This document shows positions 398-30,647 of a stretch of DNA of 50,664 nt, piece by piece. Position 1 is the first letter of the stretch, and each line of letters starts with the position of its first letter. Source of the stretch: Gammaproteobacteria bacterium (GTDB taxonomy: Bacteria > Pseudomonadota > Gammaproteobacteria > Nitrosococcales > Methylophagaceae); NCBI GenBank assembly GCA_014859375.1, contig JACUUH010000012.1, positions 1 to 50,664 of the forward strand. Direction: 5' to 3'. The position numbers and the translations under genes are program-made. Below the pieces are notes generated by a model. The model saw only the letters and a program-made list of their open reading frames with translations, was not told where the DNA came from and searched no databases.

Positions 398-486
398 TGG
401 ATCCCCGCCTTCGCGGGGATGACGAGTAACCTCAATTGTTTGTCCTTCGTTTTGATCCTGGATCCCCGCCTTCGCGGGGATGACGA
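398..486. repeat. Two copies of a 28-bp REP-like palindromic repeat
   Basis: Identical 28-bp units occupy 398-425 and 459-486. Each begins TGGATCCCCGC and ends GGATGACGA, and contains a perfect inverted repeat with arms ATCCCCGC and GCGGGGAT around a 4-base CTTC loop (401-420 and 462-481). They are much more GC-rich than the flanking DNA and lie between fhcC and the GIY-YIG gene. The form (short, GC-rich, direct copies of a hairpin in an intergenic gap) is that of REP-like elements. Neither hairpin is followed by a clear T-tract on the minus strand, so a role as an intrinsic terminator for fhcC is possible but not shown. Confidence 0.85.
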
Positions 487-509
487 AGGTGTTTAGGGGA
501 TAACAAAAA

Positions 510-2224: not shown

Positions 2225-3888
2225 ATTCTGCCCCCTGCATGTAATGGCTGCACTGTAATACTACCTCGTCCATCATCAATAATTTCATCATCACTAATTT
2301 TGAAGTTGCCCATTTTTTGAGTGTGGTAACGGTCAAAATAGGGTTTCAATTGTTTTTCGATGCTGATGTCATAGTTTGGTTTAACTACATGGGTTGTACC
2401 CCAAGTCACTTCTATCAATTGACCATCTTTAACGACCATTTTTCCATCTTTAAATACATAGTCTGGTGTAGTGAACATTTTTTCACGATCAGGATTATCG
2501 GTGTAAACCGTAATATCGGCTGCACCGCCAACACCTAGGTGACCTCGATCAGCAAGACCAACTAATTTAGCGGCACCGGCACGGGTCATTATCGCAATTT
2601 CATACAAGCTATATTCACGATCGAGTGATGCCAAATGGCTGGCCTTTTGTGCTTCTGGATGCAATTGTGATAACACGTCATTGCGGAAGGTTTTATCCAT
2701 TAACAACTTGATCAAATGTGGATAACTAGTAAACGGTGCACCATTTGGATGATCGGTTGTTAAGAATACGCGCCATGGATCATCAGCCATTAAGAAGGTT
2801 TCAAGACCAATCATCCATTGCAATGCATTTACATAACTTTGATCTTTGTATTTAAATGGCAATACACCACAGCCTGCATCACATTCGATATCCATACACA
2901 CCCATTTATTTGGATGGGCATGAGGGTGTGCTGCATGTTGACGCATATTATCACCCGATGCAGTCACAGTTTGACCAAACAAAATCTGACCGACATCGAC
3001 TGTGATATTTTTGTGTTTGTTGATCTGTTCAGCAATTTGAGCTGAACCTGATGAGAACTTAAAATCACCTTCAGTACCATAACTATGGAACTGGATATGT
3101 GTCAGATGCATTGGTAAACCGTCGATACCTTCTATCGTATCTAATGTTGTACCCATATTTCCCGGTACTCCCAAGTTACAACCATGGACATGCAGTGGAT
3201 GCGGTACACCCAATTCTTTAACGGCTCTTGCTAATCGCAATAAGATGTCACGTGGTGTCACACCGTAATAGTTATTTTTCTCGTCTAAATCTAATTTACG
3301 TTGATTAAATTTAAAGGCATTGATACCACCTGGATTAACGACTTTGACGCCGATGGCATGACTGTGATTCATTGTCCAAGCGACGTAGTTGTTAATGGCT
3401 TCTTGATCATTATTTGCCGCCATCATCCGTAGTAAGAAATCATCACTACCCAACATGACATAACCACCTTTATCAATGATCGGTGTGTCATGCATTTCCA
3501 TATGGGCTTGGCGCGCATTTACTGGCAATATTGCAGGCTCAAACCCTGCGGTATAACCCATTTCAGCATAGCGATAGCCAGCAGTTAATGTGCTTGGTGC
3601 GGCATGACCACAGCCAGAGCGCATTAACTCTGTTCTAGCAACCACATCAGCTGCGTGATCTTCTGGCAACATGGTACGAGCAATATTGACTTTACCACCA
3701 CCAATATGAGTGTGCATATCAATCGCACCCGCCATAATCACTTTGCCGCGAACATCAATCTCTTGATCGATTTTGACATCGGTAGGTCGTTCAACAATAC
3801 GACCATTTCTTACATAAATATCTCGGACATCTCCATCAATCCCATGAGCGGGATCGTAGATTTTGCCACCTGTAAGTTTCATTAACAT
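2221..3888 (-). CDS. fhcA: Formyltransferase/hydrolase complex subunit A (FhcA)
   Basis: Amidohydrolase-fold subunit homologous to FwdA/FmdA, 555 residues. The metal-binding DMHTHIGGG motif (about residue 58) follows the leading beta domain, and VKVVNPGG near residue 183 carries the candidate carboxylated lysine. HVHG, THIQFHSYG and TTDHPNGAPF supply further His/Asp ligands. In methylotrophs this subunit hydrolyses formylmethylofuran to formate. The start at ATG 3888 follows a GGA-type ribosome site; an ATG two codons later is possible. The gap to fhcB is 16 bp and the stop overlaps fhcD by 4 bp. Confidence 0.95.
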   Translation of the reverse strand: MLMKLTGGKIYDPAHGIDGDVRDIYVRNGRIVERPTDVKIDQEIDVRGKVIMAGAIDMHTHIGGGKVNIARTMLPEDHAADVVARTELMRSGCGHAAPSTLTAGYRYAEMGYTAGFEPAILPVNARQAHMEMHDTPIIDKGGYVMLGSDDFLLRMMAANNDQEAINNYVAWTMNHSHAIGVKVVNPGGINAFKFNQRKLDLDEKNNYYGVTPRDILLRLARAVKELGVPHPLHVHGCNLGVPGNMGTTLDTIEGIDGLPMHLTHIQFHSYGTEGDFKFSSGSAQIAEQINKHKNITVDVGQILFGQTVTASGDNMRQHAAHPHAHPNKWVCMDIECDAGCGVLPFKYKDQSYVNALQWMIGLETFLMADDPWRVFLTTDHPNGAPFTSYPHLIKLLMDKTFRNDVLSQLHPEAQKASHLASLDREYSLYEIAIMTRAGAAKLVGLADRGHLGVGGAADITVYTDNPDREKMFTTPDYVFKDGKMVVKDGQLIEVTWGTTHVVKPNYDISIEKQLKPYFDRYHTQKMGNFKISDDEIIDDGRGSITVQPLHAGGRI

Positions 3889-3904
3889 AATCTTTATCCG
3901 TTTC

Positions 3905-5179
3905 TTATAAAGCGTTTTCGATAGCAGTTAGTACGTCATGTGTACTAGGTAAACCACTATCGCGTAATTTTCTTAAAGGTATTGAAACCACAGTATCTAA
4001 ACGGAAAGTACGGCCGACATGATCAATGCCCGGTACACCGACAGGAATAAATACCTCAGGTTCTTGTTCAAATGTCATGCCTGAGCGACCAATCACAATC
4101 GTTTTAGCCAACGATTGTGGTGGTGTGCGTTGTACATTAAAACTCGACACCCAAACCAAGGTATCAACTTCATCATTAGCCAACATACGGTTGCTATCAG
4201 AAAGATAAGGATCGTAATCTGGGAAACCACGACTAAAATTGGTACGCATTGGATAACCTGATTGCCATGCCGAAACTTGATTCGCTGTCATCGCACCATC
4301 TCGACCACCCAAAGGTAAACCACTAGAACGTGTTTCTAAATTGAGATCTTTAACTAATTCACAGATCATTTGCACACTGGTTTCAGCATGATCAAAATCT
4401 AAATTACCTGCTGACCACGTCACTACTGAATATTTCGCTTGTTTTAATGTTTCAGCTAAAGCATCTAAGTCAGATACAGCAAGTCCACCAACCTGTTTTG
4501 CCTGAATCTGTTTACCTTTAATCAAGGCGCGTAAAACAGATAATACTTCTGGCAGATCAGCATCGTCACACGCTAACACTTGGGCTTTTTTTCCTTTTGG
4601 CGAAGTTGAAGCATCACCTGACGGTGTTTTACCAAGATAAATCACTTGGCGTGATTCGATATCCTGATTAAACATACTTTCTTTATTCCACACCATACGT
4701 TCATAAAAACGGGGGAAATCAGATTCAATATCTGTACCTACAACCAATAACACATCAACGCGGTTACGAACCTCGGTTAATGTTGTTGTCATCCAACCGG
4801 TATCTTGCAGTACCAACAAATTACGGAAGGTCGGGGTTGAATCCATATTATCAACTGTAGCACGACTTTTATCTGCTAACGCCATGGCTGCGCGACAACC
4901 GTTTAAGTCTGTTGCTAAACCGCCAATAACAGGTTGTTTGGCATCACGAATTAACTGTGCAGCATAAGATACAGCCTCATCTAATGGAACATCTTTACCA
5001 TTAATTCTGGGAGAAAGATCGGTAATGGCTGTTTCAAAGCCTGCTTTGGTAATAGCATCACCATTTTCTAAAATCGTGACATTATTACCATCAACTTTTA
5101 TCACGAGATCATCAGAAGCAATCCCACAAAATGGGCTTGGCACCTCTTGCCAAATACCTGGTTCGGTCATTTCTGTCAT
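3905..5179 (-). CDS. fhcB: Formyltransferase/hydrolase complex subunit B (FhcB)
   Basis: Homologue of the molybdopterin-type subunit FwdB/FmdB, 424 residues from the start chosen here. The reading frame is open to 5287, but that extension lies inside the upstream gene; ATG 5179 is preceded by AAAGG at good spacing and places the first conserved block, PSPFCGIASDD, at residues 14-24. In redox-active archaeal enzymes this block carries three cysteines for an iron-sulfur cluster (C-x2-C-x3-C type); here two are replaced by Ser15 and Ser22 and only Cys18 remains. That fits the known loss of dehydrogenase activity in methylotroph Fhc complexes, where the subunit is structural. Confidence 0.93.
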   Translation of the reverse strand: MTEMTEPGIWQEVPSPFCGIASDDLVIKVDGNNVTILENGDAITKAGFETAITDLSPRINGKDVPLDEAVSYAAQLIRDAKQPVIGGLATDLNGCRAAMALADKSRATVDNMDSTPTFRNLLVLQDTGWMTTTLTEVRNRVDVLLVVGTDIESDFPRFYERMVWNKESMFNQDIESRQVIYLGKTPSGDASTSPKGKKAQVLACDDADLPEVLSVLRALIKGKQIQAKQVGGLAVSDLDALAETLKQAKYSVVTWSAGNLDFDHAETSVQMICELVKDLNLETRSSGLPLGGRDGAMTANQVSAWQSGYPMRTNFSRGFPDYDPYLSDSNRMLANDEVDTLVWVSSFNVQRTPPQSLAKTIVIGRSGMTFEQEPEVFIPVGVPGIDHVGRTFRLDTVVSIPLRKLRDSGLPSTHDVLTAIENAL

Positions 5180-5189
5180 CTTGGTACCT

Positions 5190-5567
5190 TTAATCGTACT
5201 TAATGTATTTAAAACGTGGATCAGAAGGTGTACCCTCAAGTGCACTACCTTCGTGTAAAGCCGGCTGCCACTGCACGACCTGTTCAATTTTTTTAGCTAA
5301 TTCAAAGTCTTTATCGGTAACGCCTTTAGCACTGTGTGTTGTTAACTTAACAACGACAAATGCATAAGACACGGTCAAATCAGGATGATGCCACGCGGCT
5401 TCGGCTAGATGTCCAACCGTATTCACTACCATTAACGTGCCTTTCCAGCCACTGGTTTTATATTTACGCCGAATCCAGCCATTCTCAAAAAACCAATACG
5501 GCAATTCATCTGCTAACTTTTGTGCTATCTCTTGTTCTGTATATGTTTTTTCTGTTTGTTCAGACAT
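5190..5567 (-). CDS. Pterin-4a-carbinolamine dehydratase family protein
   Basis: A 125-residue protein of the PCD/DCoH (PhhB) family, with the diagnostic HLAEAAWHHPDLTVSYAFVVVKLTTHSAKGVTDKDFELA block reduced here to its key residues: the His-His-Pro near residue 61 and the TTHSAKGVTDKD segment. The classical reaction dehydrates 4a-hydroxytetrahydropterins, but proteins of this family lie beside fhc genes in methylotrophs with no aromatic hydroxylase nearby, so a role with methanopterin or the Fhc complex is plausible inference. It ends 10 bp before fhcB and starts 31 bp after the SPOR gene; GAGG precedes its ATG by 9 bases. Confidence 0.85.
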   Translation of the reverse strand: MSEQTEKTYTEQEIAQKLADELPYWFFENGWIRRKYKTSGWKGTLMVVNTVGHLAEAAWHHPDLTVSYAFVVVKLTTHSAKGVTDKDFELAKKIEQVVQWQPALHEGSALEGTPSDPRFKYIKYD

Positions 5568-5598
5568 AGTGTTTAGCCTCTGATCTCAAGATATTGAT

Positions 5599-6141
5599 TT
5601 AACTATGTTTAGCACGCATTAACAGTGAATCAATATTATTTTCTTTTAATTGTTTTTGTAAGGCATCAGCTTTATCACGACCTGAAATCGGTCCTATTTG
5701 AACCCGATGCCAGGTATCTTTATTATCAATAGTCACTGTTTGAACTTTTGATTCTAACCCTAAAAATGCCAATTTTGCTTTAAAGCCATCAGCATCAGAT
5801 AATTTTTTAAAAGAGCCAACTTGCAACATATAACTGATTTTTTCAAGCTTTTCTGTTGAATTATCAGGTGATGATTTTTCAGGTGGCGAGGTAACAACTT
5901 CCGGTTGTGCCTGTTTCGGATTGGTTACAACCGTTTCCATCTCAGGTAATAAGGTATAAAAATCAAAGGTCGGCTTGATTGTTTTTTCTATTTTTTTGTC
6001 TTTTTTGTCGGATGAAACAGGTTCAACTGGCACATTATCGTTCAAATGCATTAAGAACATAATAAACGCGCCCACAACAAAACTGAGGATCATAGGCCCC
6101 CATGGTAGTGATTTTTGTTGATTATTTCGCGATGCAGCCAC
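5599..6141 (-). CDS. SPOR domain cell-division protein (FtsN-like)
   Basis: 180-residue bitopic membrane protein. A short basic cytoplasmic tail (residues 1-13) is followed by one membrane helix (PMILSFVVGAFIMFLMHL, about 16-33), a charged and proline-rich periplasmic linker, and a C-terminal SPOR domain starting near residue 105 (YMLQVGSFKK...WHRVQIGPISG). SPOR domains bind glycan strands stripped of stem peptides at division sites, so septal peptidoglycan is the likely target. The gene starts with GTG directly after the argS stop (no gap), the usual argS-SPOR pairing of gammaproteobacteria. It is FtsN-like in layout, but the short FtsN essential region is not identifiable by eye. Confidence 0.85.
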   Translation of the reverse strand: MAASRNNQQKSLPWGPMILSFVVGAFIMFLMHLNDNVPVEPVSSDKKDKKIEKTIKPTFDFYTLLPEMETVVTNPKQAQPEVVTSPPEKSSPDNSTEKLEKISYMLQVGSFKKLSDADGFKAKLAFLGLESKVQTVTIDNKDTWHRVQIGPISGRDKADALQKQLKENNIDSLLMRAKHS

Positions 6142-7902
6142 TTACATAGTCTCCGGTGCTGATACACCCATCACAGTTAAGCCATTAGCAATAACTTGTC
6201 TAATTGCTGAAATCAAGGTTAACCGTGCCTGACTTAAATCAACATCATCAACAATAAAGTGATGTGCATTGTAGTAAGTATGGAAATCACGAGCTAAATC
6301 CATTAAATAATGCGCCAAAATATGCGGGGTATGATTTAACGCTGCTGACTCCAATACTTCTGGATAACGTGCTAATGCTGTTAACAAGTCTGTTTCGTGT
6401 TGCTCGGTTAGGCGCGCCAGTTGCTGCTGACCGTGTTGTTGATCCCAACTAAGGCCACGCTCAGCTAATTGTCTAAACACGCTGCAGACACGCGCATGGG
6501 CATACTGAACGTAATAAACAGGGTTATCACTACTTTGTGATTTGGCTAGTTCAAGATCAAAATCCATATGTTGATCAGCGCTACGTAACACATAAAAGAA
6601 ACGGGCGGCATCTTTACCAACTTCATCACGTAATTGACGTAAGGTTACAAACTCACCACTACGGGTCGACATACCGACTTTTTCAGTACCGCGATATAAC
6701 ACCGCAAACTGCACCAATAACACTTTTAACTTGCTGACATCTTGTTTGGTTGCTTCAATCGACGCTTTAACACGTGGAATATAACCATGATGATCAGCAC
6801 CCCAAATATCAATAATGTGATCAAAGCCACGTTGGTATTTATTTAAGTGATAAGCAATATCAGATGCAAAATAAGTCGCTTGGCCATTATCACGAATAAC
6901 AACACGATCTTTTTCATCACCATAATCGGTTGTTCTAAACCACCACGCACCTTTGTCTTGATATAAAACATCGGCTGCTTTTAATTGTTCGATTGCTTTA
7001 TCAACAACACCTGATTCAACTAATGAACGTTCTGAAAACCATTCGTCAAACTCAGTACCAAATTCAGCCAAGTCATCGCGAATATCATTTTTAATGGCAT
7101 TTAAACCTTTATCAAACACAAGTCGATAATCATCAGCTCCTAATAAAGTTTTGGCTTTATTAGTTAATGCATCAATGTGCATTTCTTTGTCGCCACCTTC
7201 TGGTTCATCTTCAGGAATACCATTAAAGATTTGTTTCGCATCGTGACGAAATTGTTCACCATAAAGGTCTTTAAGTTCATTGGCGATATCTTTGACGTAG
7301 TCGCCTTGATAACCATTACTTGGGAAAGTGAAGTGTTCACCACAGGCTGACAAATAACGTAACCAGACACTGGTTGCCAAAATATCCATCTGGCGGCCAG
7401 CATCATTGACATAATATTCACGGTGAACATCAAAACCCGCTGCCATTAATAAACTACTAACAACCGAACCATACGCAGCACCACGACCATGACCAACATG
7501 TAAGGGTCCTGTTGGATTTGCTGAAACAAATTCAACTTGAACAGATTGACCTTTACCGACCTCACTACGACCAAATTGATCACCAGCAGCTAATACATCC
7601 TTAACAATTTGCAGTACTGAATCTGCACTCATCGTAAAGTTAATAAAGCCGGGACCTGCAATGTCAACCTTGCTAATAAAATCGACTTGTCCAATTGCAT
7701 CAACCAATAGTGTGGCTATTTGACGAGGATTCATTTTACTAGGACGAGCCAAAACCATGGCTATATTGCAGGCAAAATCACCATGAGACTTATCTTTAGT
7801 GCGGTCAATCTGTACTTCTGGCAGATCAATTTGTGGCAAAGCACCAGTTGAAATTAACTGTGCTAATGCCTGTTCAAGCAGTTTTATAAGCTGTGCTTTC
7901 AA
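6142..7902 (-). CDS. argS: Arginyl-tRNA synthetase
   Basis: Class I aminoacyl-tRNA synthetase, 586 residues. The N-terminal Add-1 tRNA-binding domain is followed by the HIGH signature as HVGH (residues 135-138, in [20 protein letters not shown]), and the KMSK-equivalent region reads [10 protein letters not shown], lacking a canonical KMSK as is normal for many ArgRS. The C-terminal helical anticodon-binding (DALR) domain ends with [13 protein letters not shown]. The only suitable start is TTG at 7902, with AGG about 11 bases upstream, a weak initiation region. It is the first gene of the run continuing into the SPOR gene and fhc. Confidence 0.97.
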
Positions 7903-8023
7903 TGTTGGAAAACCTGAAATGGAGTTAATCGAAGCATTTTAACCGATCATAGGCCATTGATCACATCATTGATTTGATTGATTTTGATCTTGATTACTAG
8001 ACCTTACTAAAGTGACCGTGAAT

Positions 8024-10198
8024 TTACATTAAGTCGATAGGATCAATATCGATAGACCAACGTACTTTTCGAGCTAATTTTAATGCCGAAATTTGCTCTA
8101 TTGTTCGATCGAGCAATTGATGAATTGGCTTTCTATGTTGGCTTGATAATAATAATTGAGCTCGATATCGTCCTGCCCTTTTTTCCATAATGGCAGGAAC
8201 AGGACCAAATACCATGACTTGTGCATGTTTATTTTGATTAAAAAGCGCCAACATAGCATTAAGCAATGTCATTGCTATTTCCTGTTGTTTATCTTCGGCT
8301 CGAATAATACATAAGGAACCTGCTGGCGGCATCATTAAATCTTGCCGTTCTTGTAATAATTTTTTAGCGGTATAGCGATAACCGTGCTTGAGTAAATCCT
8401 TCCAAAATGGATGTTGCGGTTGCGATGTTTGAATAATTACTTCCCCAGCTTTTTCACCACGACCAGCACGGCCAGTTACCTGCACAATTAATTGAGCCAG
8501 GCTTTCAGTTGCTCTAAAGTCTGCACTAAACAAACCTTGATCAGCATCTAACACACCTACCAAGGTTACATCATGAAAATCGTGACCTTTAGCCAACATC
8601 TGAGTACCAACTAAAATCCTTGCTTCCCCTTTATTGATATCTTCAATTAAATCGCTAAATGCATTAATACGTTGAGTACTATCCCGATCGATGCGTAACA
8701 CGGGTGTGTTTGGGAAAAATGTTTGTAAATTTTGTTCTATTTGTTCAGTACCAGCGCCATAGGTATTAAGTTCTGTGTTAGCACAATCAGGACATTGATC
8801 AATAAGACGCTGCATTGCACCACAATGATGACAACAAAGAAGATTGCGTCGTTGATGTACGATCATTTTGGCATCGCAATAGGTACATTTTGCTTGCCAA
8901 CCACAGTCATGACACATTAAAACAGGTGCAAAGCCACGACGATTTATAAAGAGTAAGACTTGATTACCGGCTTTAATTTCTTTATCAATTGCATGATACA
9001 AAATACTTGATAGTGCTTTATCCGCTTTTGGCCCACCACTATCAACCAATGTTATTTTCGGTAGCTTTGCTCCGGTTGCTCGCTGACTTAAAGTTAACAG
9101 TTGATATCGTTGTTGTTGTACGTTGTAGAGACTTTCTAAAGAGGGTGTTGCACTGCCCATTATGATCGGAACTGAGGCACGTTGGGCTCTTATTAGGGCC
9201 ACATTTCGAGCATGATAACGTAAACCATCTTGCTGTTTATACGAGCTATCATGTTCTTCATCAATGATAATTAAACCAAGCCGAGGTAAGGGCGTAAACA
9301 CAGCCGATCGTGTTCCTATAACGATATCAGCTAAACCTTGTTGTGCTAGTAACCAGGCTTGTTTTCTTTCACCGTCTGACACAGATGAATTTAATACAAC
9401 AATTGTTGCGGCAAGTCGTTGTTTAAACCGTTGTACAAACTGACTGGTTAAACCAATTTCGGGAATTAACACCAACACCTGTTGGTTATTTTCAATGCAT
9501 TTTCGAGCAAGTTCAATATAAACTTCTGTTTTACCGCTACCCGTAATTCCATCAAGTAAATACGGGGAAAAAGTCTTATCTCCATTCGATACAGTTTCAA
9601 CTACCCGTTGCTGTTCGAAATTGAGTTGAAATGGTTCGGAACGAGCAATTTGGTATGGTTTTTTAAACCTAACTTCTTGTTCTATTATGCTTTTCTGTTG
9701 CAAACCTAACAATGATGTTCGGCATGGTCCTAAGTGATTATATAACTCAGTTTGACTAAGACCGTGACAATACTTTTTAAGTAAATCGATTATTTGTTGC
9801 TGTTTTTTGCCTAATTTTAATTGCTGTTCTTGTTTAAATACCCAAAAAGATTCCTGTTGAATATCAGCAGGATCACCCAAACGTAATCGTTTCGGTAACA
9901 CCGTTTGAAAACAATCCCCAATGGGATGATGGTAATAATCACTAATCCAAACGGTCAATTGAAATAAATCAGATGGAATGATGACTGTAACATCAATGCA
10001 ACGCGTAATCTGTTTTAATTTTTGTGTGTCGCTATCTTCTGCTGTTTTTATATTTACAACAATACCGATAAGTTGGCGTGATCCAAAAGGTACTTCAACT
10101 CGCATGCCTTTTTGCCAAATTTTTATTACAGGATCAGCAATATAATCGAACGTTTGTCTTAAGGGACAAGGGACAGCAATTTCTAAAAGTGTGATCAT
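8024..10198 (-). CDS. priA: Primosomal protein N' (PriA helicase)
   Basis: Replication-restart DEAH-type helicase, 724 residues. An N-terminal 3'-DNA-binding domain precedes the helicase core with Walker A GSGKT (220-224) and Walker B DEEH (313-316). A zinc-binding insert of paired cysteines (MCHDCGWQAKCTYC...CCHHCG...CPDC, about residues 428-475) follows, then the second RecA lobe with VTGRAGRG. It loads the primosome at stalled forks. The gene stands alone between argS (121 bp) and the DnaA-box region upstream of its start, so its promoter lies inside that possible origin region. Confidence 0.97.
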   Translation of the reverse strand: MITLLEIAVPCPLRQTFDYIADPVIKIWQKGMRVEVPFGSRQLIGIVVNIKTAEDSDTQKLKQITRCIDVTVIIPSDLFQLTVWISDYYHHPIGDCFQTVLPKRLRLGDPADIQQESFWVFKQEQQLKLGKKQQQIIDLLKKYCHGLSQTELYNHLGPCRTSLLGLQQKSIIEQEVRFKKPYQIARSEPFQLNFEQQRVVETVSNGDKTFSPYLLDGITGSGKTEVYIELARKCIENNQQVLVLIPEIGLTSQFVQRFKQRLAATIVVLNSSVSDGERKQAWLLAQQGLADIVIGTRSAVFTPLPRLGLIIIDEEHDSSYKQQDGLRYHARNVALIRAQRASVPIIMGSATPSLESLYNVQQQRYQLLTLSQRATGAKLPKITLVDSGGPKADKALSSILYHAIDKEIKAGNQVLLFINRRGFAPVLMCHDCGWQAKCTYCDAKMIVHQRRNLLCCHHCGAMQRLIDQCPDCANTELNTYGAGTEQIEQNLQTFFPNTPVLRIDRDSTQRINAFSDLIEDINKGEARILVGTQMLAKGHDFHDVTLVGVLDADQGLFSADFRATESLAQLIVQVTGRAGRGEKAGEVIIQTSQPQHPFWKDLLKHGYRYTAKKLLQERQDLMMPPAGSLCIIRAEDKQQEIAMTLLNAMLALFNQNKHAQVMVFGPVPAIMEKRAGRYRAQLLLSSQHRKPIHQLLDRTIEQISALKLARKVRWSIDIDPIDLM

Positions 10199-10413
10199 TA
10201 ATAATAATTATAAGTATTTAAAAGATAAAAGATGTTGATGATTATTGCCTGTGTGTAACTGTATAAGGTTTTTTTTCATATAATTTACATCATGTTAAAG
10301 CTGATCTTTGGTGTTGATAAGTTTATGTTGATCAGGCTGATCTCTTGTGGATAAAAGTGATAGTTATCCACAGCTAAAATTATCCACAGCTTATGATCAG
10401 TTTTATACGTCTG
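10199..10413. other. DnaA-box cluster; candidate replication origin
   Basis: Three perfect 9-mer DnaA boxes lie within 43 bp: 10346-10354 (minus, TGTGGATAA), 10364-10372 and 10380-10388 (both plus, TTATCCACA). The first two face each other across 9 bp. Four GATC sites lie at 10303, 10330, 10339 and 10395. To the left, 10199-10300 is very AT-rich with runs such as ATAATAATTATAAG and a T-run near 10270, suitable for an unwinding element. No ORF is supported here. The composition matches a gammaproteobacterial oriC; a DnaA-regulated promoter for priA or a DnaA-titration site are the alternatives. Confidence 0.55.
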
Positions 10414-12060
10414 TTATACCTCAGTTATGATCTCATCATTGTCATTATATTTTTCAAGCGTTTTAAGTGTTTCGTAATAAACAAATGCTTTGAATGCTTG
10501 CTGTGAAATTCGTCTAATTTGGCTAATTGATGTCATGGTTTTATCCATTTTAGCTATGGATAATTGACCTTCTGCTCCTCGTCTTAATAATAATGCTTTT
10601 AGTGATTGATACTCTTTTTCAAGCTCTTCGAGTTGTTTAGCTAATACTTCTTTAGGCGTCGTTGTATCGATGCCGGTATTATCAAGCAAACTTACACTAT
10701 GATTAAAAAATACGTTTAATTGTTGTTCAATATCTGGATTGAGAGAGGTTGAAATTTGCTTTTTGCCAGTATTAACCATTACCGATAATTCTGAAATAGC
10801 ATCATAATATTGTGCTACTCGTAAAACACTAGGTAATTTTTCAGAAATATCTTCGGTTAAATTTTGTTTATAAAGTTCGGCTGTGTAGTCACCAATAGCA
10901 AGAGTTAAGCTTTCTATTACTCTATCTTTAGTAGTGAATTTATTTGAATAGGATTCAAAGTTTATACTATCTTTTGCCATTTCTAAGGCATAGTCAGCTA
11001 CCCGTTTTAATTCCATTTTTAATGCACGTAATGCCAACGAAGGTAGCGATAAAGAATGTTTATCCAGATACATTGGCTTGGCCAGATCTTCATCTTTTGT
11101 TTTAAAATGATTTTTTAACCATGACACCAATGTATCTGCAAGTGGCCACATTAGTAAGACGCCTAACACATTAAATACTGTATGAAACAGGGCAAGTGTT
11201 GTTATTGTTGAGCCAGTATCATCCCATAACGATTGAACAAAAACGATGCCCGAAAGTAACGGCGTAATTAGAATTAAAGACACTATTGCTGTAATAACAT
11301 TAAAAATAACATGGCTGGCAACAACTCGCTTTGCGACAGGATTTGTACCGAAGGATGAGAAAATGGCGGTAGTAGTACTTCCCAGGTTGCTTCCTATGGC
11401 AATTGCAGCAGCGGGTAATAAGGTCATAATGCCACCTGCCAATGCCGTCAGCGTGATTGCCAAGGTTATACTTGATGATTGCATTAATACTGTTATTAGA
11501 AAGCCAAAACCGACGTATAACAAGATATTGATTAATCCATCTTGTCTAACACTATCGAAAGATACTTGTTCACCTAATATTGAAAAGGTGTCTTTTAGTA
11601 CATCGATACCCATAAATAAAATGCCAAACCCGACCAAGGCTTGACCAAGCGCTCCAATACGAGATTCTGATTGTACTAACTTTAACAGCATGCCAATACC
11701 AATCATTGGAAGCGCAAAGGCGCTAATTTTGAAATTAAATCCGATTAAAGTGACGAACCAGCCGGTTGTAGTGGTACCTATATTGCTGCCAAATATAATC
11801 CAGATTGCGCGTCGTAAACTCAATAAACCAGCATTAGTAAACCCAATAGTCGCAACCGTAACAGCACCTGATGATTGAATCAGTGATGTCAGGAAGAAAC
11901 CAACACCTAAACCGCGGAGTCGGGTTTTAGTCCAATGATGTAAAAAATGATTGAGTGCATCACCTGCAGCCATTCTCAAGCCATCAGACATGAGCCACAT
12001 ACCTAATAAAAATAAGCCTAAACCGCCAATACCTGCACTGATCATTGCAAAAACAGACAT
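10414..12060 (-). CDS. Na/Pi cotransporter family protein with PhoU-like tail
   Basis: 548-residue membrane protein of the NptA/YjbB (PF02690) group. The N-terminal half holds two inverted repeats of hydrophobic segments with the family Q-S-S motifs (TSLIQSSGAVTVATIGF and VLMQSSSITLAITLTAL), which form the sodium and phosphate site in NaPi-II carriers. From about residue 340 the protein is soluble, helical and charged, resembling PhoU. It probably exports or exchanges phosphate with sodium; direction cannot be read from sequence. ATG 12060 is preferred over GTG 12066, because AAAGGG is spaced 5 bases from the ATG but touches the GTG. Confidence 0.88.
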   Translation of the reverse strand: MSVFAMISAGIGGLGLFLLGMWLMSDGLRMAAGDALNHFLHHWTKTRLRGLGVGFFLTSLIQSSGAVTVATIGFTNAGLLSLRRAIWIIFGSNIGTTTTGWFVTLIGFNFKISAFALPMIGIGMLLKLVQSESRIGALGQALVGFGILFMGIDVLKDTFSILGEQVSFDSVRQDGLINILLYVGFGFLITVLMQSSSITLAITLTALAGGIMTLLPAAAIAIGSNLGSTTTAIFSSFGTNPVAKRVVASHVIFNVITAIVSLILITPLLSGIVFVQSLWDDTGSTITTLALFHTVFNVLGVLLMWPLADTLVSWLKNHFKTKDEDLAKPMYLDKHSLSLPSLALRALKMELKRVADYALEMAKDSINFESYSNKFTTKDRVIESLTLAIGDYTAELYKQNLTEDISEKLPSVLRVAQYYDAISELSVMVNTGKKQISTSLNPDIEQQLNVFFNHSVSLLDNTGIDTTTPKEVLAKQLEELEKEYQSLKALLLRRGAEGQLSIAKMDKTMTSISQIRRISQQAFKAFVYYETLKTLEKYNDNDEIITEV

Positions 12061-12163
12061 GAACACCCTTTGTAAATTTAAAATAGATTTTTAGACTGAT
12101 AATACCTGATATTTTACGAGCTGGTATCATGCTGGTTGATTGTTTTGTTAAGGTTTGATGCTA

Positions 12164-12652
12164 ATGAAAATCGCGATAATAGTTGCAATGGATCAACGAG
12201 GTTTGATTGGAAAAAATAATGATCTTCCTTGGAAGTTATCAGCTGATTTGCAGTATTTTCGCCGAGTAACGATGGGTAAACCTATTATTATGGGTAGAAA
12301 TACCCATGAATCGATTGGTCGCCCATTGCCGGGCAGAACTAATATTATTGTGACTAAAAATAAAGACTATGCCGTTGATGGTTGCATTGTTGTCAACACA
12401 ATTGAAGATGCAATTAAAGCCTGTGGTGATGCTGAAGAAGCGATGATTATGGGCGGGGCTTCACTTTATCAACAGTTTTTACCTTTGGCTGATAGGATTT
12501 ATCTGACCCAGGTTCATGCCAATCTGGAAGCGGGTGATACCTGGTTTCCAGACTGGCAAAAATCTGATTGGCTAGAACTGAATCGTGAAGATCATCCTGC
12601 GGATGAAAAAAACCAATACCCATTCAGTTTTATTATTTATGATCGATGTTGA
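12164..12652 (+). CDS. folA: Dihydrofolate reductase
   Basis: Reduces dihydrofolate to tetrahydrofolate with NADPH; about 162 residues, the usual length. The N-terminal IAIIVAMDQRGLIGKNNDLPWKL contains the flexible loop and the Asp/Trp substrate region, MGRNTHESIGRPLPGR binds NADPH, and IMGGASLYQQFLPLADRIYLT is the second nucleotide motif. Three in-frame starts are close (TTG 12155, ATG 12158, ATG 12164). I chose 12164, because AAGG at 12150-12153 is 10 bases away and the protein then begins right at the first strand; 12158 is possible. Confidence 0.95.
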   Translation: MKIAIIVAMDQRGLIGKNNDLPWKLSADLQYFRRVTMGKPIIMGRNTHESIGRPLPGRTNIIVTKNKDYAVDGCIVVNTIEDAIKACGDAEEAMIMGGASLYQQFLPLADRIYLTQVHANLEAGDTWFPDWQKSDWLELNREDHPADEKNQYPFSFIIYDRC

Positions 12653-12658
12653 GGTTAT

Positions 12659-12895
12659 TTAGGTTGCACTAAGAATACGAAGCGCTGCTTGAGTATGTTC
12701 CGCTGCTTCATGGCCAAGATCGGTTAAATAACCACCATCTTCACTATCAACCAAGCCTTTTTGATGAAGACGTTTGACCGCAGAGATTAAACCCTCACGC
12801 GCAGTGTGATGTACCTTAATTCCTTCTTGTGTTGTTTCAAGGTTATATCGAAGCAGGATCTCAATTTCGTCTACCAATTCTTGTTTTATTGTCAT
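12659..12895 (-). CDS. TIGR02647 family protein
   Basis: A 78-residue protein resembling the TIGR02647 family of gammaproteobacteria, recognised by ELVDEIEILLRYNLETTQEGIKVHHTA and the C-terminal GGYLTDLGHEAAEHTQAALRIL. The arrangement (an AVKRLHQKGLV helix, then a GGYLT wing) looks like a small winged-helix DNA-binding fold, but no target is known. It is convergent with folA (6 bp between stops) with no visible terminator there. The family match is from memory of its sequence pattern; the function is unknown. Confidence 0.8.
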   Translation of the reverse strand: MTIKQELVDEIEILLRYNLETTQEGIKVHHTAREGLISAVKRLHQKGLVDSEDGGYLTDLGHEAAEHTQAALRILSAT

Positions 12896-13024
12896 ATTGT
12901 CATCTCTATATTCGTTGTTATAAGCGTCTTAAATCCTACACTTTTTAATTAAAATATCTATAGCTTTTATAGATGGTCTGCTATTGTGCGACGATTTTAA
13001 AATTAATTGTCCGAGTAAACTGCT

Positions 13025-13876
13025 ATGACAACAAATACGTCACAAATTAAACAAGCCTTATTTGAATTACATCAAAACAAATTATTTGAACTTTTTGTCA
13101 TCACAATCATCGTGTTATCAGCACTTTTAACCGGTGCAAAAACCTATGATGTCGGCTCAACAGCAAACCTAATCATCAGTTGGTCTGATAACTTTATTAC
13201 AGTCTTTTTTTTAGTTGAAATTTTAATCCGATTATCTTCAGAACCGAGATTGTTAGATTTCTTCAAAAAAGGTTGGAATGTGTTCGATTTTATAATCGTT
13301 GTAGCGAGTTTATTACCGTTAGAAGGTAATGATACGGTATTACTGGCTCGATTATTACGTATATTTAGGGTGTTACGCTTAATATCATTAATCCCTGAAT
13401 TACGTTTATTAATTAATGCATTATTAAAAGCGATGCCCACAATGGGGTATGTTGTCTTACTGATGTTTATTATTTTTTATATCTATGCTGCCATTGGTAG
13501 TTTTATGTTCGAACATATCAACAATGAATTATGGGGTAATATTTCAATTTCGATGTTAACGTTATTTCGTGTTGCGACTTTTGAAGATTGGACGGATGTC
13601 ATGTATGAGACTATGACAGTGTATCCTTTGAGCTGGATTTTTTATCTTAGTTTTATTTTTTTAACAGCCTTTGTTTTTCTCAATATGATGATTGGCGTTA
13701 TTCTTGATGTTATGCAAAAAGAACAAGAGCAGTATCAGCGCGATCAAGGTGAAGGTGAAGCAGCAGAGGTTCATTGGTTAAAACAGCATGCACAACAAAT
13801 GGAGTTACGATTGGAACGGATTGAGCAGTTATTAATCCAAAATGTTAATAGTGTCACAAAGCGGCATGATTTATAG
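13025..13876 (+). CDS. Voltage-gated cation channel (BacNaV-like ion transporter)
   Basis: Single-domain six-helix voltage-gated channel, 283 residues. The S4 voltage sensor carries arginines at every third position (R109, R112, R115, R118). The pore loop reads T185-F-E-D-W-T-D191, aligned with the bacterial sodium channel filter TLESWS. S6 (about 204-230, FLTAFVFLNMMIGVILDVM) has the conserved Asn. A C-terminal coiled coil (about 232-272) should assemble the tetramer. The extra acidic residues D188 and D191 resemble filters engineered for calcium selectivity, so sodium versus calcium selectivity is open. It is monocistronic or leads into the next two small genes. Confidence 0.9.
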   Translation: MTTNTSQIKQALFELHQNKLFELFVITIIVLSALLTGAKTYDVGSTANLIISWSDNFITVFFLVEILIRLSSEPRLLDFFKKGWNVFDFIIVVASLLPLEGNDTVLLARLLRIFRVLRLISLIPELRLLINALLKAMPTMGYVVLLMFIIFYIYAAIGSFMFEHINNELWGNISISMLTLFRVATFEDWTDVMYETMTVYPLSWIFYLSFIFLTAFVFLNMMIGVILDVMQKEQEQYQRDQGEGEAAEVHWLKQHAQQMELRLERIEQLLIQNVNSVTKRHDL

Positions 13877-13948
13877 TTAACTAATTTACTTCAATAACCA
13901 GAAGTTGTAATCTAACCTTCTGAATCCTAAATAATTAAGGAGTATGTT

Positions 13949-14197
13949 ATGGAAATTCCTGGAATTGCACCATTCAGCGGTCAGCCAACACTAACAAACC
14001 CTTTATCTCAGGAAGCTGAGCTAACAGGGCGGCAAACCCAGGCACGGTCTAGCAATGAAACTCAAAATACTGTGACTGCAAATGAACAGCAATCAACAGC
14101 GCTTAGTAGTGTTAATGTGGTCAATGAATCTACCGAAACGCAGCAAACAGGGTTTAATCCCAATAATCCTGGTGGAACAATTGATATCACAGCATAA
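13949..14197 (+). CDS. Low-complexity hypothetical protein
   Basis: An 82-residue protein I do not recognise. It is rich in Gln, Asn, Thr and Ser, has no Cys and no membrane segment, and is probably disordered; the start MEIPGIAPFSGQP and the end NPNNPGGTIDITA are the only distinctive parts. It has an AAGGAG ribosome site just before its ATG and ends 11 bp before the pentapeptide-repeat gene, which supports it as a real gene co-transcribed with that one. No function can be assigned. Confidence 0.65.
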   Translation: MEIPGIAPFSGQPTLTNPLSQEAELTGRQTQARSSNETQNTVTANEQQSTALSSVNVVNESTETQQTGFNPNNPGGTIDITA

Positions 14198-14208
14198 GGA
14201 TAAATTGT

Positions 14209-14553
14209 ATGGCAGCACCTCGAATTTCAGATGATCCACTTTATCGTTTATTGCGAGATGGAAAAGTGGCTGAATTTAATCAGCGCATTCAGGCTGGGGA
14301 AACTGTCGATCTAACAGGGTGTGACTTTAGGCATTTGAATTTACAAGGTCTTGTTGCTGTTGGACTTGATTTTTCCAACAGTTATTTTCGTCAAGCAGAT
14401 TTACGCGGTGTCGATTTTTCAGATTGTGATAATCTAGAAGGTGCAAGTATTCATGCTGCCAAAATATCAGGCTGTTATTTCCCGAACACTATTCGAGCCG
14501 AAGAAATTTTACTGTCTCTAGAGCATGGTACTCGTATGCGATATAACACTTAG
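14209..14553 (+). CDS. Pentapeptide-repeat protein
   Basis: A 114-residue protein with a short run of A(D/N)Lxx-type pentapeptide repeats: VDLTG CDFRH LNLQG LVAVG LDFSN SYFRQ ADLRG VDFSD, covering about residues 33-74. These build a right-handed quadrilateral beta-helix. The stretch gives only about two coils, much shorter than the gyrase-protecting Qnr/MfpA proteins, so quinolone protection is not suggested. The N-terminal DDPLYRLLRDGKVAEFNQR and C-terminal AEEILLSLEHGTRMRYNT are helical caps. It lies downstream of the low-complexity gene and is convergent with tatC. Function unknown. Confidence 0.8.
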   Translation: MAAPRISDDPLYRLLRDGKVAEFNQRIQAGETVDLTGCDFRHLNLQGLVAVGLDFSNSYFRQADLRGVDFSDCDNLEGASIHAAKISGCYFPNTIRAEEILLSLEHGTRMRYNT

Positions 14554-14565
14554 TTTAAGCATAAG

Positions 14566-15306
14566 TTAACCATCATTTTGTTCGCTGGAATTTTTAGGTA
14601 AAAAACGAGCACATAGTAAACCACCCTCAAATAATAACCAAACGGGCAAGGCTAATAAGGTTTGTGAAATGACATCTGGTGGTGTTAACAACATACCTAC
14701 AACAAAGGCGCCAACAATAATGTATGGGCGTTTCTCCGCTAAGCTTTTAACCGACGAAATACCGGTCCAGATTAATAATAATGTTGCTATAGGCACTTCA
14801 AATGCCAATCCAAAAGCAAAAAATAATTTCAAAACGAAATCCAGATAACTGCTGATATCAGTCATCACAGCCACACCTTCGGGTGCGGCCTGAGTTAAAA
14901 AGCCAAAAATAAGTGGAAACACCACAAAGTAAGCAAACACAATACCCAAGAAGAACAATAAGGTACTTGCAAGCAATAATGGAAACACCATTTTGCGCTC
15001 ATTGTCATATAAACCTGGAGCAATAAATGCCCACAACTGATAAAGCAAGACGGGAATGGCCAGCATGATGGCGACGCTTAATGTGAGCTTGAAAGGTGTT
15101 AAAAATGGCGACGCTACTTCGGTAGCAATCATTGTGCTTGACTCAGGTAAATGCCGTAATAACGGTTCTGCTAAGAAATGATATAAGTCATTAGAAAAGG
15201 GTAATAAACAGGCTGCAATAATGAGTACAGCAACGATGCCTCGCAATAAACGGTCTCGTAACTCAATCAAATGCGAAATCAATGGTTGTTGGTTATCCGT
15301 TTCCAT
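14566..15306 (-). CDS. tatC: Sec-independent translocase TatC
   Basis: Core membrane subunit of the twin-arginine translocase, 246 residues with six predicted helices. The conserved cytosolic N-terminus ([14 protein letters not shown]) binds the twin-arginine signal, and [22 protein letters not shown] is the late-family signature. With TatB it recognises folded cofactor-containing substrates and with TatA it forms the transport pore. The start overlaps the tatB end by 14 bp, indicating coupling. It is the last gene of the his-hinT-tat run. Confidence 0.97.
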
Positions 15307-15571
15307 TGTCGCCCTTACCTGATTTTTGATTGTTGCTTTCTGAGATGGCTTTATCTATATCTGTTACATCAATTGTTTTATTCAGCGCCTGTTTGAGTTC
15401 TTCAGCGCGTAATTCTTGACTAATATCATTTCGGATTGATTGTAATGATGCGTTGGCTCGACCAACCCACATTCCTGTCACACGAATCAGCTTAGGTAGG
15501 CGCTCTGGCCCAACAACAACTAAGGCAACAACGGCAATCAGTAATAATTCCCAAAAACCGATATCAAACAT
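15293..15571 (-). CDS. tatB: Sec-independent translocase TatB
   Basis: 92-residue single-pass protein that works with TatC in signal-peptide recognition. The short membrane helix ([21 protein letters not shown], given here as residues 6-26) contains the conserved Glu8 and GPERLPK hinge. It is followed by an amphipathic helix and a charged tail ending in glycine and asparagine. It lies 2 bp after tatA and overlaps tatC by 14 bp. The GPERLP hinge separates it from TatA, whose hinge is FGTKKLR. Confidence 0.95.
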
Positions 15572-15573
15572 AT

Positions 15574-15813
15574 TCAGTTGTTCGAGTGTGTGTCTTTTTC
15601 AGAGGCGTGTTGATTAGAAGCGGTTTGCTCGTGATTTATTGCAGCATCGTCATCGTTAACGCTATCTTCACCTTCACGTACAGATTGTTTGAAGTTTTTG
15701 ATTGCACTGCCTAAGTCACCACCTAAAGAGCGTAATTTTTTGGTTCCAAATAATAAGATGACAATCACTAAAACAATCAGTAATTGCCAAATGCTAACTC
15801 CGCCTAAACCCAT
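15574..15813 (-). CDS. tatA: Sec-independent translocase TatA
   Basis: 79-residue pore-forming subunit of the twin-arginine translocase. It has one short helix ([20 protein letters not shown], residues 8-27), the [21 protein letters not shown] hinge and amphipathic helix signature in reduced form around residues 22-42, and an acidic tail. It starts 9 bp after hinT and is followed by tatB, in the common gammaproteobacterial arrangement his-hinT-tatABC. Confidence 0.95.
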
Positions 15814-15822
15814 AATATGCTC

Positions 15823-16161
15823 CTAATTAAACCCAGGTATCTTACTGCCACCGAGAATATGAAAGTGTAAATGCCCAACTTCTTGGCCGCCATCGGGACC
15901 CGTATTGATAATTGTTCGAAAACCGTTATTGAGACCTTGGCTTCGAGCGATTTCGGGCAGTTTCAACGTCATATATCCCATTAAATCCTGCTGGCCATGA
16001 TCAAGGTGATCAAGGCTGTCGATATGCGTTTTGGGGATAACTAATACATGGACCGATGCTTTAGGGTTGATGTCTTTGAACGCAAAGATTTTGTCATCTT
16101 CATACACTTTGGATGAGGGGATGTCGCCCGCAATGATTTTACAAAAGATACAATCAGTCAT
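15823..16161 (-). CDS. hinT: HIT-family purine nucleoside phosphoramidase (HinT)
   Basis: 112-residue histidine-triad protein that hydrolyses AMP-lysine and other nucleoside phosphoramidates. The triad H-x-H-x-H is seen as HLHFHI near the C-terminus, preceded by GGQEVG; the N-terminal CIFCKIIAGDIPSSKVYEDD is the family opening. Its ATG overlaps the hisE stop by one base. Its place between hisE and tatA is common in related bacteria and does not imply a histidine role. Confidence 0.95.
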   Translation of the reverse strand: MTDCIFCKIIAGDIPSSKVYEDDKIFAFKDINPKASVHVLVIPKTHIDSLDHLDHGQQDLMGYMTLKLPEIARSQGLNNGFRTIINTGPDGGQEVGHLHFHILGGSKIPGFN

Positions 16162-16478
16162 TATTTGCTCCTACTGGCTTTTTCATCGATGCCAGATAGT
16201 CCAAAGCGACGATCGAGTTCATCCAGAATTTCTTGTGGGCTAATGTTGTTATGGGCTAACAATACTAAACTGTGAAACCAAAGATCAGCGGTTTCATAGA
16301 TGATTTCTTCGCGAACACCACCTTTGCCTGCAATCACTGTTTCGGTCGCTTCTTCACCTAATTTTTTGAGAATTTTATCGGTACCAGCATGATACAAACT
16401 GGCGACATAGGAGCTATCTTTATCCGCCTGTTTACGAGCTTCGAGTACTTGTGCCAGCTTGTTTAGAATGTCGCTCAT
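16161..16478 (-). CDS. hisE: Phosphoribosyl-ATP pyrophosphatase
   Basis: Second step of histidine synthesis, releasing pyrophosphate from PR-ATP; 105 residues. The MazG-like helices include [17 protein letters not shown] with the metal-binding E-E-x-x-E residues, and [15 protein letters not shown]. It is a stand-alone gene here, not fused to hisI as in enteric bacteria, and overlaps hisI by 4 bp and hinT by 1 bp. Confidence 0.96.
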
Positions 16479-16855
16479 TTATAGATCTCTTTAGGGTCTT
16501 TAAGTACCGATTCGGTAATTTGCCATTGACCATTTTCTAGCTTGTTATAAAAACAATGATGGCGACCAGTATGGCATGCAATACCACCCAATTGCTCAAC
16601 TTCTAGCAAGATAGCATCATTATCACAGTCTAAACGAATGGATTTAACCAATTGCTGGTTGCCAGACTGTTCACCCTTATGCCACAACTTTTGGCGAGAA
16701 CGAGACCAATAAACGGCATGACCGGTATCAACTGTCAGTTGTAATGATTCTTTATTCATCCATGCTAATGTGAGTACTTGCTTGCTTTTATGCTCTTGTG
16801 TGACAACAGGGATGAGACCCTGGTTATTCCATTTAACTTGATCTAACCAGTTCAT
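16475..16855 (-). CDS. hisI: Phosphoribosyl-AMP cyclohydrolase
   Basis: Third step of histidine synthesis, opening the adenine ring of PR-AMP; 126 residues. [32 protein letters not shown] (given as key residues W-S-R-S-R and W-H-K-G-E) and the zinc/magnesium region [13 protein letters not shown] followed by [10 protein letters not shown] are all present. Start at ATG 16855 directly follows the hisF stop, and the stop overlaps hisE by 4 bp. Confidence 0.96.
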
Positions 16856-17629
16856 TTAGAGTCTTACCTCTATGCCTTGGCTCGCCATTTGTTGCTTGGC
16901 TTCTTGCACAGTATGTTGGCCAAAGTGAAAGATACTGGCGGCAAGCACAGCATCGGCTCGACCCAGTTTTACACCATCAGTCAGATCCTGTAATTGACCA
17001 ACACCACCCGATGCAATAACAGGAACAGCAACGGCATCACTTACTGCACGTGTCAGTTCAAGATCAAAGCCAGATTTAGTGCCATCACGATCCATGCTGG
17101 TCAGTAGAATTTCACCGGCGCCATAATCGACCATTTTTTTGGCCCACTCAACAGCGTCAATACCAGTGCTAGTACGACCGCCATGAGTGAATATTTCCCA
17201 TTTATTGGGTTCACCATCGGCTGAGACGCGTTTTGCATCAATTGCAACAACAATACATTGCGAGCCAAATTTTTCTGCGGCTTGTTTTACAAATTCTGGG
17301 TTTTTAACTGCTGCGGAGTTGATCCCCACTTTATCTGCACCGGCATTTAACATTGTTCGAATATCATCTACGGTACGAATACCGCCACCAACCGTTAGAG
17401 GTATAAATACCTGACTGGCAACAGCCTCTACAACATGAACCATGGTGTCTCGATCATGATGTGTTGCCGTTATATCAAGAAAGGTGATCTCATCTGCACC
17501 TTGTTGATCGTAGCGTTTAGCTACCTCGATAGGATCACCCGCATCCCGAATATCAACAAACTTTACACCTTTGACAACACGACCATCATCAACATCAAGA
17601 CAAGGAATAATGCGTTTGGCTAGACTCAT
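16856..17629 (-). CDS. hisF: Imidazole glycerol phosphate synthase cyclase subunit
   Basis: TIM-barrel subunit, 257 residues, that uses ammonia from HisH to form imidazole glycerol phosphate and AICAR. The two catalytic aspartates are in [12 protein letters not shown] (D11) and [13 protein letters not shown] (about D130). Phosphate-binding glycines appear in VGGGIRT and ASGGVG. It lies 10 bp after hisA and is contiguous with hisI, with HisH encoded just upstream of hisA. Confidence 0.97.
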
Positions 17630-17639
17630 GATAATTCCA

Positions 17640-18389: not shown

Positions 18390-18419
18390 AAAGATTTCTC
18401 CATTTAATGCAAAGTTAGC

Positions 18420-19064: not shown

Positions 19065-19130
19065 AAAATTTCCATCAGTTTTATTTCAAAATACTATTTT
19101 ACGTAATAAAGTTACTAGATACGATAAAAA

Positions 19131-19724: not shown

Positions 19725-19823
19725 CATATTTCCTGATTTCGTAATATAAAACCGCATAATAACTGTTTCAGAGAGCGGTTTGAAGGGGTATCATGATCTC
19801 TTATTGACAGAATTGGATATCAG

Positions 19824-26923: not shown

Positions 26924-28003
26924 TTGGTGCTTACACAACTCGTTATTTCCAATCTGAGGAATATAACGGAACTAAAATTTACCCCCTATTCTGGTATCAA
27001 TTTAATTATCGGTGATAATGGATCTGGTAAAACAACACTGCTGGAAGCAATCCATCTACTTGCTTTGGGCCGTTCTTTTCGTACACGCTCGTTAAAAAAC
27101 ATTGTTCAATTTAGTCAGCAACGCAGCCTTATTCTTGCAAAATTGCCTAATGATATTCCGATTGGAATTGAGTACTCCTTGTCTTCCGGATTGAAAATTC
27201 GATTGAATAGTGCACCTGTTACTAAATTATCTGAACTTGTGGCACACCTTCCTTTGCAATTCATCCCCGCTAACTGCCACCAAATATTTGAGCAGGGTCC
27301 ACGTTATCGCCGTCAACTTCTTGATTGGGGTGTGTTTCACGTGGAACAGCAGTTTAATTATCACTGGCAATCGTATAAAAAAATAATACAACAACGCAAT
27401 TCTGCTTTGCGGCAACGAAAGAATAATGATGAGATTACATTATGGGACCAGCAATGCGTATTACATGGTGAAACAATTACTAACTATCGTATCAACTATT
27501 TAGAGCGGTTATTAGAAGAGTTTATAAATGTATTTACTAGCTTATGCCCAGAACTAAAAGGTTCAGAGTTTATAATTAAGTATAAAAATGGCTGGGTGAA
27601 AGGTTCATCACTTCAACAGGCATTGCTCGATAGTTTAGAACGTGACAAACAATTGTTGTATACAAAGTCTGGCAGTCATGCTGCTGACTGGATAATAAAA
27701 ATAAATGATGGTGATCCTGCTGAAATCTTATCAAGAGGACAGCAAAAACTGTATTTTATAGCGCTATCTTTGGCGCAAACAAATATTGCTAACAAAGCAA
27801 ATGGTTCAAAAAAAAGCGGGTCACTATTGATTATTGACGATCTTAGTTCTGAACTTGATATCGATCATCAACTGCTGGTGCTACAAGCGTTATCTCGTAC
27901 GCCTGCACAATGCTTTATAACAACAACAGATTACTCGTTGTCTGAGCGATTAAAAGACATAGATCATAGAATGTTTCACGTGAAACATGGGCGGTTAGTC
28001 TAG
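26924..28003 (+). CDS. recF: DNA repair protein RecF
   Basis: SMC-like ATPase, 359 residues, that loads RecA at gaps. Walker A is GDNGSGKTTLLEAIHLL (about 30-46), the ABC signature is LSRGQQKLYFIALSLAQ, and Walker B is LLIIDDLSSELD. TTG 26924 is in-frame with GTG 26927 next to it; GGA at 26913-26915 fits the TTG. Two parS motifs lie inside the gene, both encoding Phe-His-Val. Upstream is the rubredoxin reductase gene, not the usual dnaA-dnaN; gyrB follows. Confidence 0.96.
   Translation: MVLTQLVISNLRNITELKFTPYSGINLIIGDNGSGKTTLLEAIHLLALGRSFRTRSLKNIVQFSQQRSLILAKLPNDIPIGIEYSLSSGLKIRLNSAPVTKLSELVAHLPLQFIPANCHQIFEQGPRYRRQLLDWGVFHVEQQFNYHWQSYKKIIQQRNSALRQRKNNDEITLWDQQCVLHGETITNYRINYLERLLEEFINVFTSLCPELKGSEFIIKYKNGWVKGSSLQQALLDSLERDKQLLYTKSGSHAADWIIKINDGDPAEILSRGQQKLYFIALSLAQTNIANKANGSKKSGSLLIIDDLSSELDIDHQLLVLQALSRTPAQCFITTTDYSLSERLKDIDHRMFHVKHGRLV
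27333..27348. promoter_or_regulatory. Putative parS site (ParB binding) in recF
   Basis: TGTTTCACGTGGAACA matches the chromosomal parS consensus TGTTNCACGTGNAACA, with one asymmetric arm position. It lies inside the recF reading frame at GTG TTT CAC GTG GAA CAG. A ParB dimer would be expected to nucleate here for origin segregation. No parAB genes are in the window. Confidence 0.75.
27972..27987. promoter_or_regulatory. Putative parS site, perfect palindrome, in recF 3' end
   Basis: TGTTTCACGTGAAACA is a perfect 16-bp palindrome and an exact parS consensus; the flanking A and T extend it to 18 bp (27971-27988). It is placed 639 bp from the first site and within the last codons of recF (Met-Phe-His-Val-Lys-His). 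Confidence 0.85.

Positions 28004-28226: not shown

Positions 28227-30647
<2,421 letters not shown>

Follow-up and report, generated by a model that had tools for sequence, protein, structure and literature searches.

How a cluster of DnaA boxes set against the start of priA should be read is the question raised by this locus. The boxes lie in a 50,664-nt stretch of DNA, here called the window, from a host that we term Methylophaga-like because the best named relatives of its priA among the matches listed are Methylophaga sp. NORP65 (62%) and UBA3192 (61%). We conclude, with a probability of about 93%, that positions 10199 to 10428 are the chromosomal replication origin (oriC), which is unusually located in being next to priA. 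We do so because the block of boxes is conserved and because GC skew switches at or near the block and not at dnaA, and both observations uphold the candidate origin that a sequence-only reading had placed there. What is new is the place and, in some relatives, a twin copy of the block, not the kind of element. Ori-Finder 2022, in the accessible part of its description, uses dnaA as the default indicator gene for origin finding, and origins beside priA can therefore be missed. The accessible part of a Francisella paper names priA, together with dnaA, among the marker genes near the oriC of that organism. Among the titles and abstract beginnings listed from the open-licence literature, there was no description of an origin beside priA or of a Methylophaga origin.

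The perfect DnaA box, TTATCCACA, occurs three times within 43 bp (10346 to 10388; Table 1), just as the sequence-only reading had reported. That reading also had two of the boxes facing each other, but the first two, read as 5'-TTATCCACA-3', point apart and are divergent. Three perfect boxes were found in none of 2,000 dinucleotide shuffles of 10199 to 10413, the number of such triples expected by a Poisson estimate is 6e-6, and no other triple as tight exists in the draft genome of the host (2,353,634 bases, 106 contigs), which has 39 perfect boxes against 29 matches to the reversed control pattern. Within the window, the cluster is the sole site with at least three boxes (at most 1 mismatch) per 300 bp. 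Sites matching TTWTNCACA number 6 across the window versus 9.4 expected, such that the overall count is unremarkable and the clustering alone is unusual. The boxes cluster beyond chance, as in a DnaA-dependent oriC, and they have an AT-rich stretch next to them, as judged by composition only: 10199 to 10413 is 28% GC, and a 40-mer with 4 G+C begins 38 bases before the priA start. The AT-rich flank had been recognized from the letters, as had four GATC sites in about 100 bp, at 10303, 10330, 10339, and 10395 (window mean, 4.82 per kb). Genes to the left had all been placed on the minus strand; this holds for the long open reading frames of 510 to 10198 but not for one overlapping plus-strand frame of 109 amino acids. 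We note that formylmethanofuran-dehydrogenase-type genes occupy 510 to 5287, next to argS and priA.

Table 1. Coordinates of the box cluster, flanking elements, and neighboring genes in the window
Feature	Position	Strand	Basis or remark
Perfect DnaA box	10346..10354	-	TTATCCACA match; position conserved in relatives
Perfect DnaA box	10364..10372	+	TTATCCACA match; position conserved in relatives
Perfect DnaA box	10380..10388	+	16 bp from previous box; pair searched for in relatives
DnaA box, 1 mismatch	10312..10320	-	Box search
Box adjoining trios, 2 mismatches in window	10250..10258	-	Nearer consensus in many relatives
Five NAN triplets, DnaA-trio-like	10232..10246	-	Same site in 22/24 aligned rows
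AT-rich stretch abutting priA start codon, probable unwinding element	10199..10231		Sequence; aligned in relatives
Conserved ATAAC..GTATAA element, distal block edge	10413..10428	-	Alignment; overlaps 3' end of Na/Pi gene
argS	6142..7902	-	Pfam
priA, primosomal helicase	8024..10198	-	Pfam
Na/Pi cotransporter gene	10414..12066	-	Pfam; sits between folA and block in some relatives only
folA, dihydrofolate reductase	12155..12652	+	Pfam
recF, contains both parS sites	26924..28003	+	NCBIfam
parS-like site, 1 mismatch	27333..27348		Inside recF
Perfect parS site	27972..27987		Inside recF
gyrB	28230..30647	+	NCBIfam

Conservation of the block is nearly family wide. We searched 57 family genomes for the box pair with 16-bp spacing and compared the hits with the positions of priA. 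In 44 of the 47 genomes with a priA match, priA has the pair (at most 1 mismatch) immediately upstream on its own contig. In two others the pair and priA are on separate contigs (G013, where both are near contig ends, and G024), and in the third, G076, priA is present and the one pair that the search returned has 2 mismatches and sits on a different contig. Ten genomes lack a priA match, and the pair was found in five of them (G059, G070, G072, G073, and G031), which brings the pair-bearing genomes to 51 of 57. The search did not find the pair in G016, G022, G002, and G069, which are 67 to 86% complete, or in G029. The last of these is an assembly of 1.1 Mb that is listed as 100% complete, has neither a priA match nor the pair, and carries 19 perfect boxes in scattered positions. 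Moreover, in a sample of 369 genomes of the class, the three-box pattern (at most 2 mismatches) was present in all four family members and in none of the 365 others. A looser, 2-mismatch pair occurred outside the family once each in G043 and G049, and that of G049 (G049:C42:1230-1254) is about 130 bp before priA. We also note that assemblies break close to the block in L004, G013, G024, G031, and G059 and that one priA match, G063:C1:1439575-1440993, contains an in-frame TAA.

The order of elements within the block is conserved as well. The alignment comprised 24 rows, 23 of them distinct since L008 and L192, equal in length and identical across the block, are apparently one contig. It omitted L004 (whose contig stops 53 bases short of priA), L183 (whose contig lacks priA), and L055 and L071 (other lineages). 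Toward priA, the rows present the ATAAC..GTATAA element, two boxes, the divergent box, and, as a rule, one more box about 34 bp farther along, followed by a spacer, a box with NAN repeats, the AT-rich stretch, and the priA start. The Na/Pi cotransporter gene is beside the block in 8 of the 24 rows. The available text on the basal unwinding system gives a search rule for DnaA-trios, namely, a box, a spacer of at most 16 bp, and at least three NAN triplets (PMC8287927), and the priA-proximal site conforms to that rule in 22 of the 24 rows, with L182 and L191 failing. The likeness to the basal unwinding system is in that arrangement; as far as the available text goes, the difference is that the putative trios here are mostly AAT/CAT/CAA-like, whereas the published consensus is 3'-GAT-5' (PMC8287927). 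The five triplets of the window were reached by 37 of 500 shuffles; the corresponding counts were 29 of 500 for L175 and 0 of 500 for L180. Thus, the run in the window is weak by itself, and its conservation across rows carries the argument for trios.

How initiation at this block might be restrained was considered by comparison with Escherichia coli. There, oriC is by mnmG and not beside dnaA, is controlled through Dam and SeqA, and contains DnaA boxes, an AT-rich flank, and GATC sites. The block resembles it in having TTATCCACA-type boxes, an AT-rich flank, GATC sites, and a location away from dnaA, but it differs in adjoining priA and in lacking two marks of Dam/SeqA control. GATC is not conserved, with 0 to 6 sites per aligned row and none in L187, and no SeqA match was found in any of the 57 family genomes by a search that did return the E. 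coli control. Therefore, sequestration of the E. coli type is unlikely, and we reject SeqA control. As a raw tally, a candidate IHF-site pattern, WATCARNNNNTTR (at most 1 mismatch), recurs near position -100 in many rows; exact matches are found in six rows, five near -100 and that of L190 elsewhere, and the row of the window has none near -100.

GC skew changes sign, from negative to positive, at the block or close to it in the window and in G065, G060, G034, and G018, as sampled in stretches of contigs and not computed over whole genomes, with offsets of 2 to 10 kb and only coarse placement in G018. In the window, skew is -0.091 over 1 to 10198, -0.015 over 10389 to 25000, and +0.080 from 25001 to the end. 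Skew as sampled supports the candidate of the sequence-only reading: the window changes sign and G065 switches at the priA boxes. The cumulative minimum of the window, near 20 kb, is displaced from the boxes by about 10 kb. A run of minus-strand open reading frames at 14566 to 19757 may have shifted that minimum. G065, a single contig of 3.135 Mb (20 stretches, 400 kb), is negative as far as its boxes (305.7 kb); the ten stretches between 315 kb and 1.67 Mb are positive, and the six from 1.8 Mb onward are slightly to clearly negative. Its local cumulative minimum is at 315 kb, 9 kb from the boxes, and there is no switch at dnaA (159.5 kb). G060 (C1, 2.70 Mb; 20 stretches) is negative from 150 kb to 2.0 Mb and positive beyond that point as well as over its first 20 kb, with a local minimum at 1,986,001 within 2 kb of boxes at 1,987,971 and no switch in the 1.80-Mb stretch, the nearest sampled to dnaA (1.865 Mb). 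G018 (C1, 0.92 Mb; 12 stretches) stays negative until about 527 kb, is near zero or slightly negative up to 555 kb, and is positive from 600 kb; the switch can be placed no finer than about 527 to 600 kb, the boxes are at 528.7 kb, and dnaA (453 kb) falls within the negative part. G034 (C3, 2.27 Mb; 21 stretches) switches between about 361 and 371 kb, around boxes at 362.8 kb, and is positive to 1.26 Mb and then negative. Because its skew is about zero near dnaA (149 kb), G034 is undecided between an origin at dnaA and one at priA. The skew arms of G060 and G034, as sampled, are unequal, which counts against the origin reading and may reflect replication arms of different length or assemblies that are rearranged; contig C1 of G034 is mostly negative.

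Sites for chromosome partitioning lie near the block. The sequence-only reading had seen parS motifs in recF 17 kb away, and the window indeed has one perfect site and one with a single mismatch, 17 to 17.6 kb from the boxes. In G065, G060, and G034, pairs of parS sites (0 to 2 mismatches) with a near-constant spacing of 633 bp lie at a distance of 12 to 17 kb from the boxes, and G065 has an additional 2-mismatch site 1.9 Mb away. None was found in seven other stretches of the host genome or in the sampled 80-kb-scale neighborhood in G018, where the only site, with 2 mismatches, is 81 kb off.

Boxes before priA could also serve priA. The cluster might be a DnaA-controlled promoter or a datA-like titrating site for priA, with the origin elsewhere in the region, and indeed, the block abuts the priA start codon and the skew minimum of the window is 10 kb away. 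Two other gammaproteobacteria, L055 (about 9589 to 9798) and L071 (about 8872 to 9083), have box clusters of matching mutual spacing within about 400 bp before priA, yet their skew keeps one sign across 22 and 11.5 kb, respectively. Boxes before priA are thus no proof of an origin, and the 2-mismatch pair before priA in G049 may be counted on the same side. Against a site serving only priA, the trios and the AT-rich stretch have been kept in the block, the window has no other box cluster, and the local minimum of G060 is within 2 kb of its boxes. We consider that explanation improbable, although the block too may have a role in priA control.

Still less probable is a main origin at dnaA or mnmG, with the block at priA as a secondary site or a relic. 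In the sister family, f2 (compared genomes, G036 and G038 to G041), the origin is as a rule between dnaA and dnaN, and all five genomes with a dnaA match have 5 to 10 boxes (at most 1 mismatch) in a dnaA-dnaN gap of 272 to 871 bp. There, priA is 14 to 24 kb from dnaA, and in the three genomes examined the 700 bases preceding priA contained no box. The near-zero skew at dnaA in G034 would also be compatible with an origin there. In the family of the host, the gap is instead only 14 to 27 bp in 16 of 19 loci (71, 72, and 231 bp in G013, G023, and G017), and none of the 19 has a box cluster in it. The gap of the host itself is 15 bp and has no box, unlike an origin of the f2 type. Moreover, skew does not switch at dnaA in G065, G060, or G018. 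In the host, skew is positive in each of the four stretches sampled from the dnaA contig (80 of 135.7 kb) and negative in each of the three from the mnmG contig (57 of 57.4 kb), single 2.5-kb pieces differing, and the surroundings of neither gene have three boxes within 300 bp. A skew minimum with denser boxes elsewhere, for example at dnaA, had been named as grounds for abandoning the candidate, and with neither cluster nor switch on the sampled contigs, we reject an origin at dnaA or mnmG in the host. Outside both families, G044 (24-bp gap) and G050 (116 bp) likewise lack a cluster between dnaA and dnaN, and the genome G037 (one contig, 1.8 Mb) has no dnaA match at the cutoff and a dnaN that starts near base 268 of the contig, such that dnaA is perhaps cut by the contig ends or absent.

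How the oriC block came to lie beside priA may be glimpsed in f2. Its dnaA-dnaN origin has the same succession of outward boxes, inward boxes, spacer, single box, NAN repeats, AT-rich stretch, and gene start, an order compared with G054, G042, and G057 left out, and the basal unwinding system rule applies in four of five f2 genomes, G036 being the exception. The two differ in the number and spacing of boxes and in that dnaN follows the AT-rich stretch in f2 whereas priA does so in the family of the host. A profile of the family block matches the f2 gap with an E value of 3e-8 but also matches the opposite strand and other members of the class, and common descent is therefore only plausible, the sequence likeness being suggestive. 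G036 shares the order formylmethanofuran dehydrogenase-argS-priA with the window, and its opposite flank carries dnaN and gyrB. We infer that an origin once situated in the dnaA-dnaN gap ended up next to priA and that dnaA and dnaN closed up. The dnaA-dnaN pair would now be tens to hundreds of kilobases from the origin (dnaA, searched for in 46 of the 57 family genomes, and the box pair are 74 to 216 kb apart in the 13 with both on one contig), with recF, gyrB, and parS still near. If the family moved its origin, as it seemingly did, while the sister family keeps the old place, the two form a natural experiment on the neighbors of an origin.

Six of the 57 family genomes (G001, G005, G006, G008, G020, and G028) have a second box pair, in the gap between priA and argS. 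The second copy is full length, with boxes, trios, and AT-rich stretch, and is 58 to 70% identical to the upstream copy of its own genome; at so low an identity, an assembly artifact does not explain the twins. Within G001, G005, and G006, and again within G008 and G028, the copies cluster by position, with G020 not placed, and thus predate the species splits within those two subclades. A priA tree covering 29 family members and 3 outgroups requires the trait to have changed at least twice. In G033, a tandem copy, 76% identical, lies upstream of priA, and the window, by contrast, has one copy. Such copies might hint at an integrated plasmid or other mobile element as the source of the boxes, but the place is the same family wide, repeated insertion would be required, and 9900 to 10500 had no match in 72,556 plasmid records, and so we reject a plasmid origin and regard a mobile one as scarcely credible.

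Twin clusters around one gene recall the bipartite origins of Epsilonproteobacteria, which flank dnaA and in which, according to the available part of the report, unwinding occurs in oriC2 only (PMC5043019). The anatomy of six relatives is alike in that box clusters flank a single replication gene and differs, as far as that part of the report describes, in that the gene is priA and both copies have boxes, trios, and an AT-rich stretch (PMC5043019). We speculate, tentatively and with the odds against it, that in part of the family two complete origins about 2.4 to 2.6 kb apart flank priA, that both are selected and able to fire, and that origin and priA, a helicase-loading gene, form one unit coupling initiation to priA expression. 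Relatives with two full-length copies make the firing of adjacent origins testable.

By analogy with known origins, DnaA would bind the three divergent strong boxes and then the weaker boxes toward priA. From the priA-proximal box, a DnaA oligomer would be guided onto the trio-like repeats and might open the AT-rich stretch that touches the priA start codon, whereupon helicase would be loaded and two forks would depart. The block is also a candidate for building replicating plasmids in methylotrophs. Finally, we note that the host genome has a second, weak DnaA-family match (G000:C42:9387-9971; 69.8 bits) with one internal TAA, which is perhaps Hda-like.
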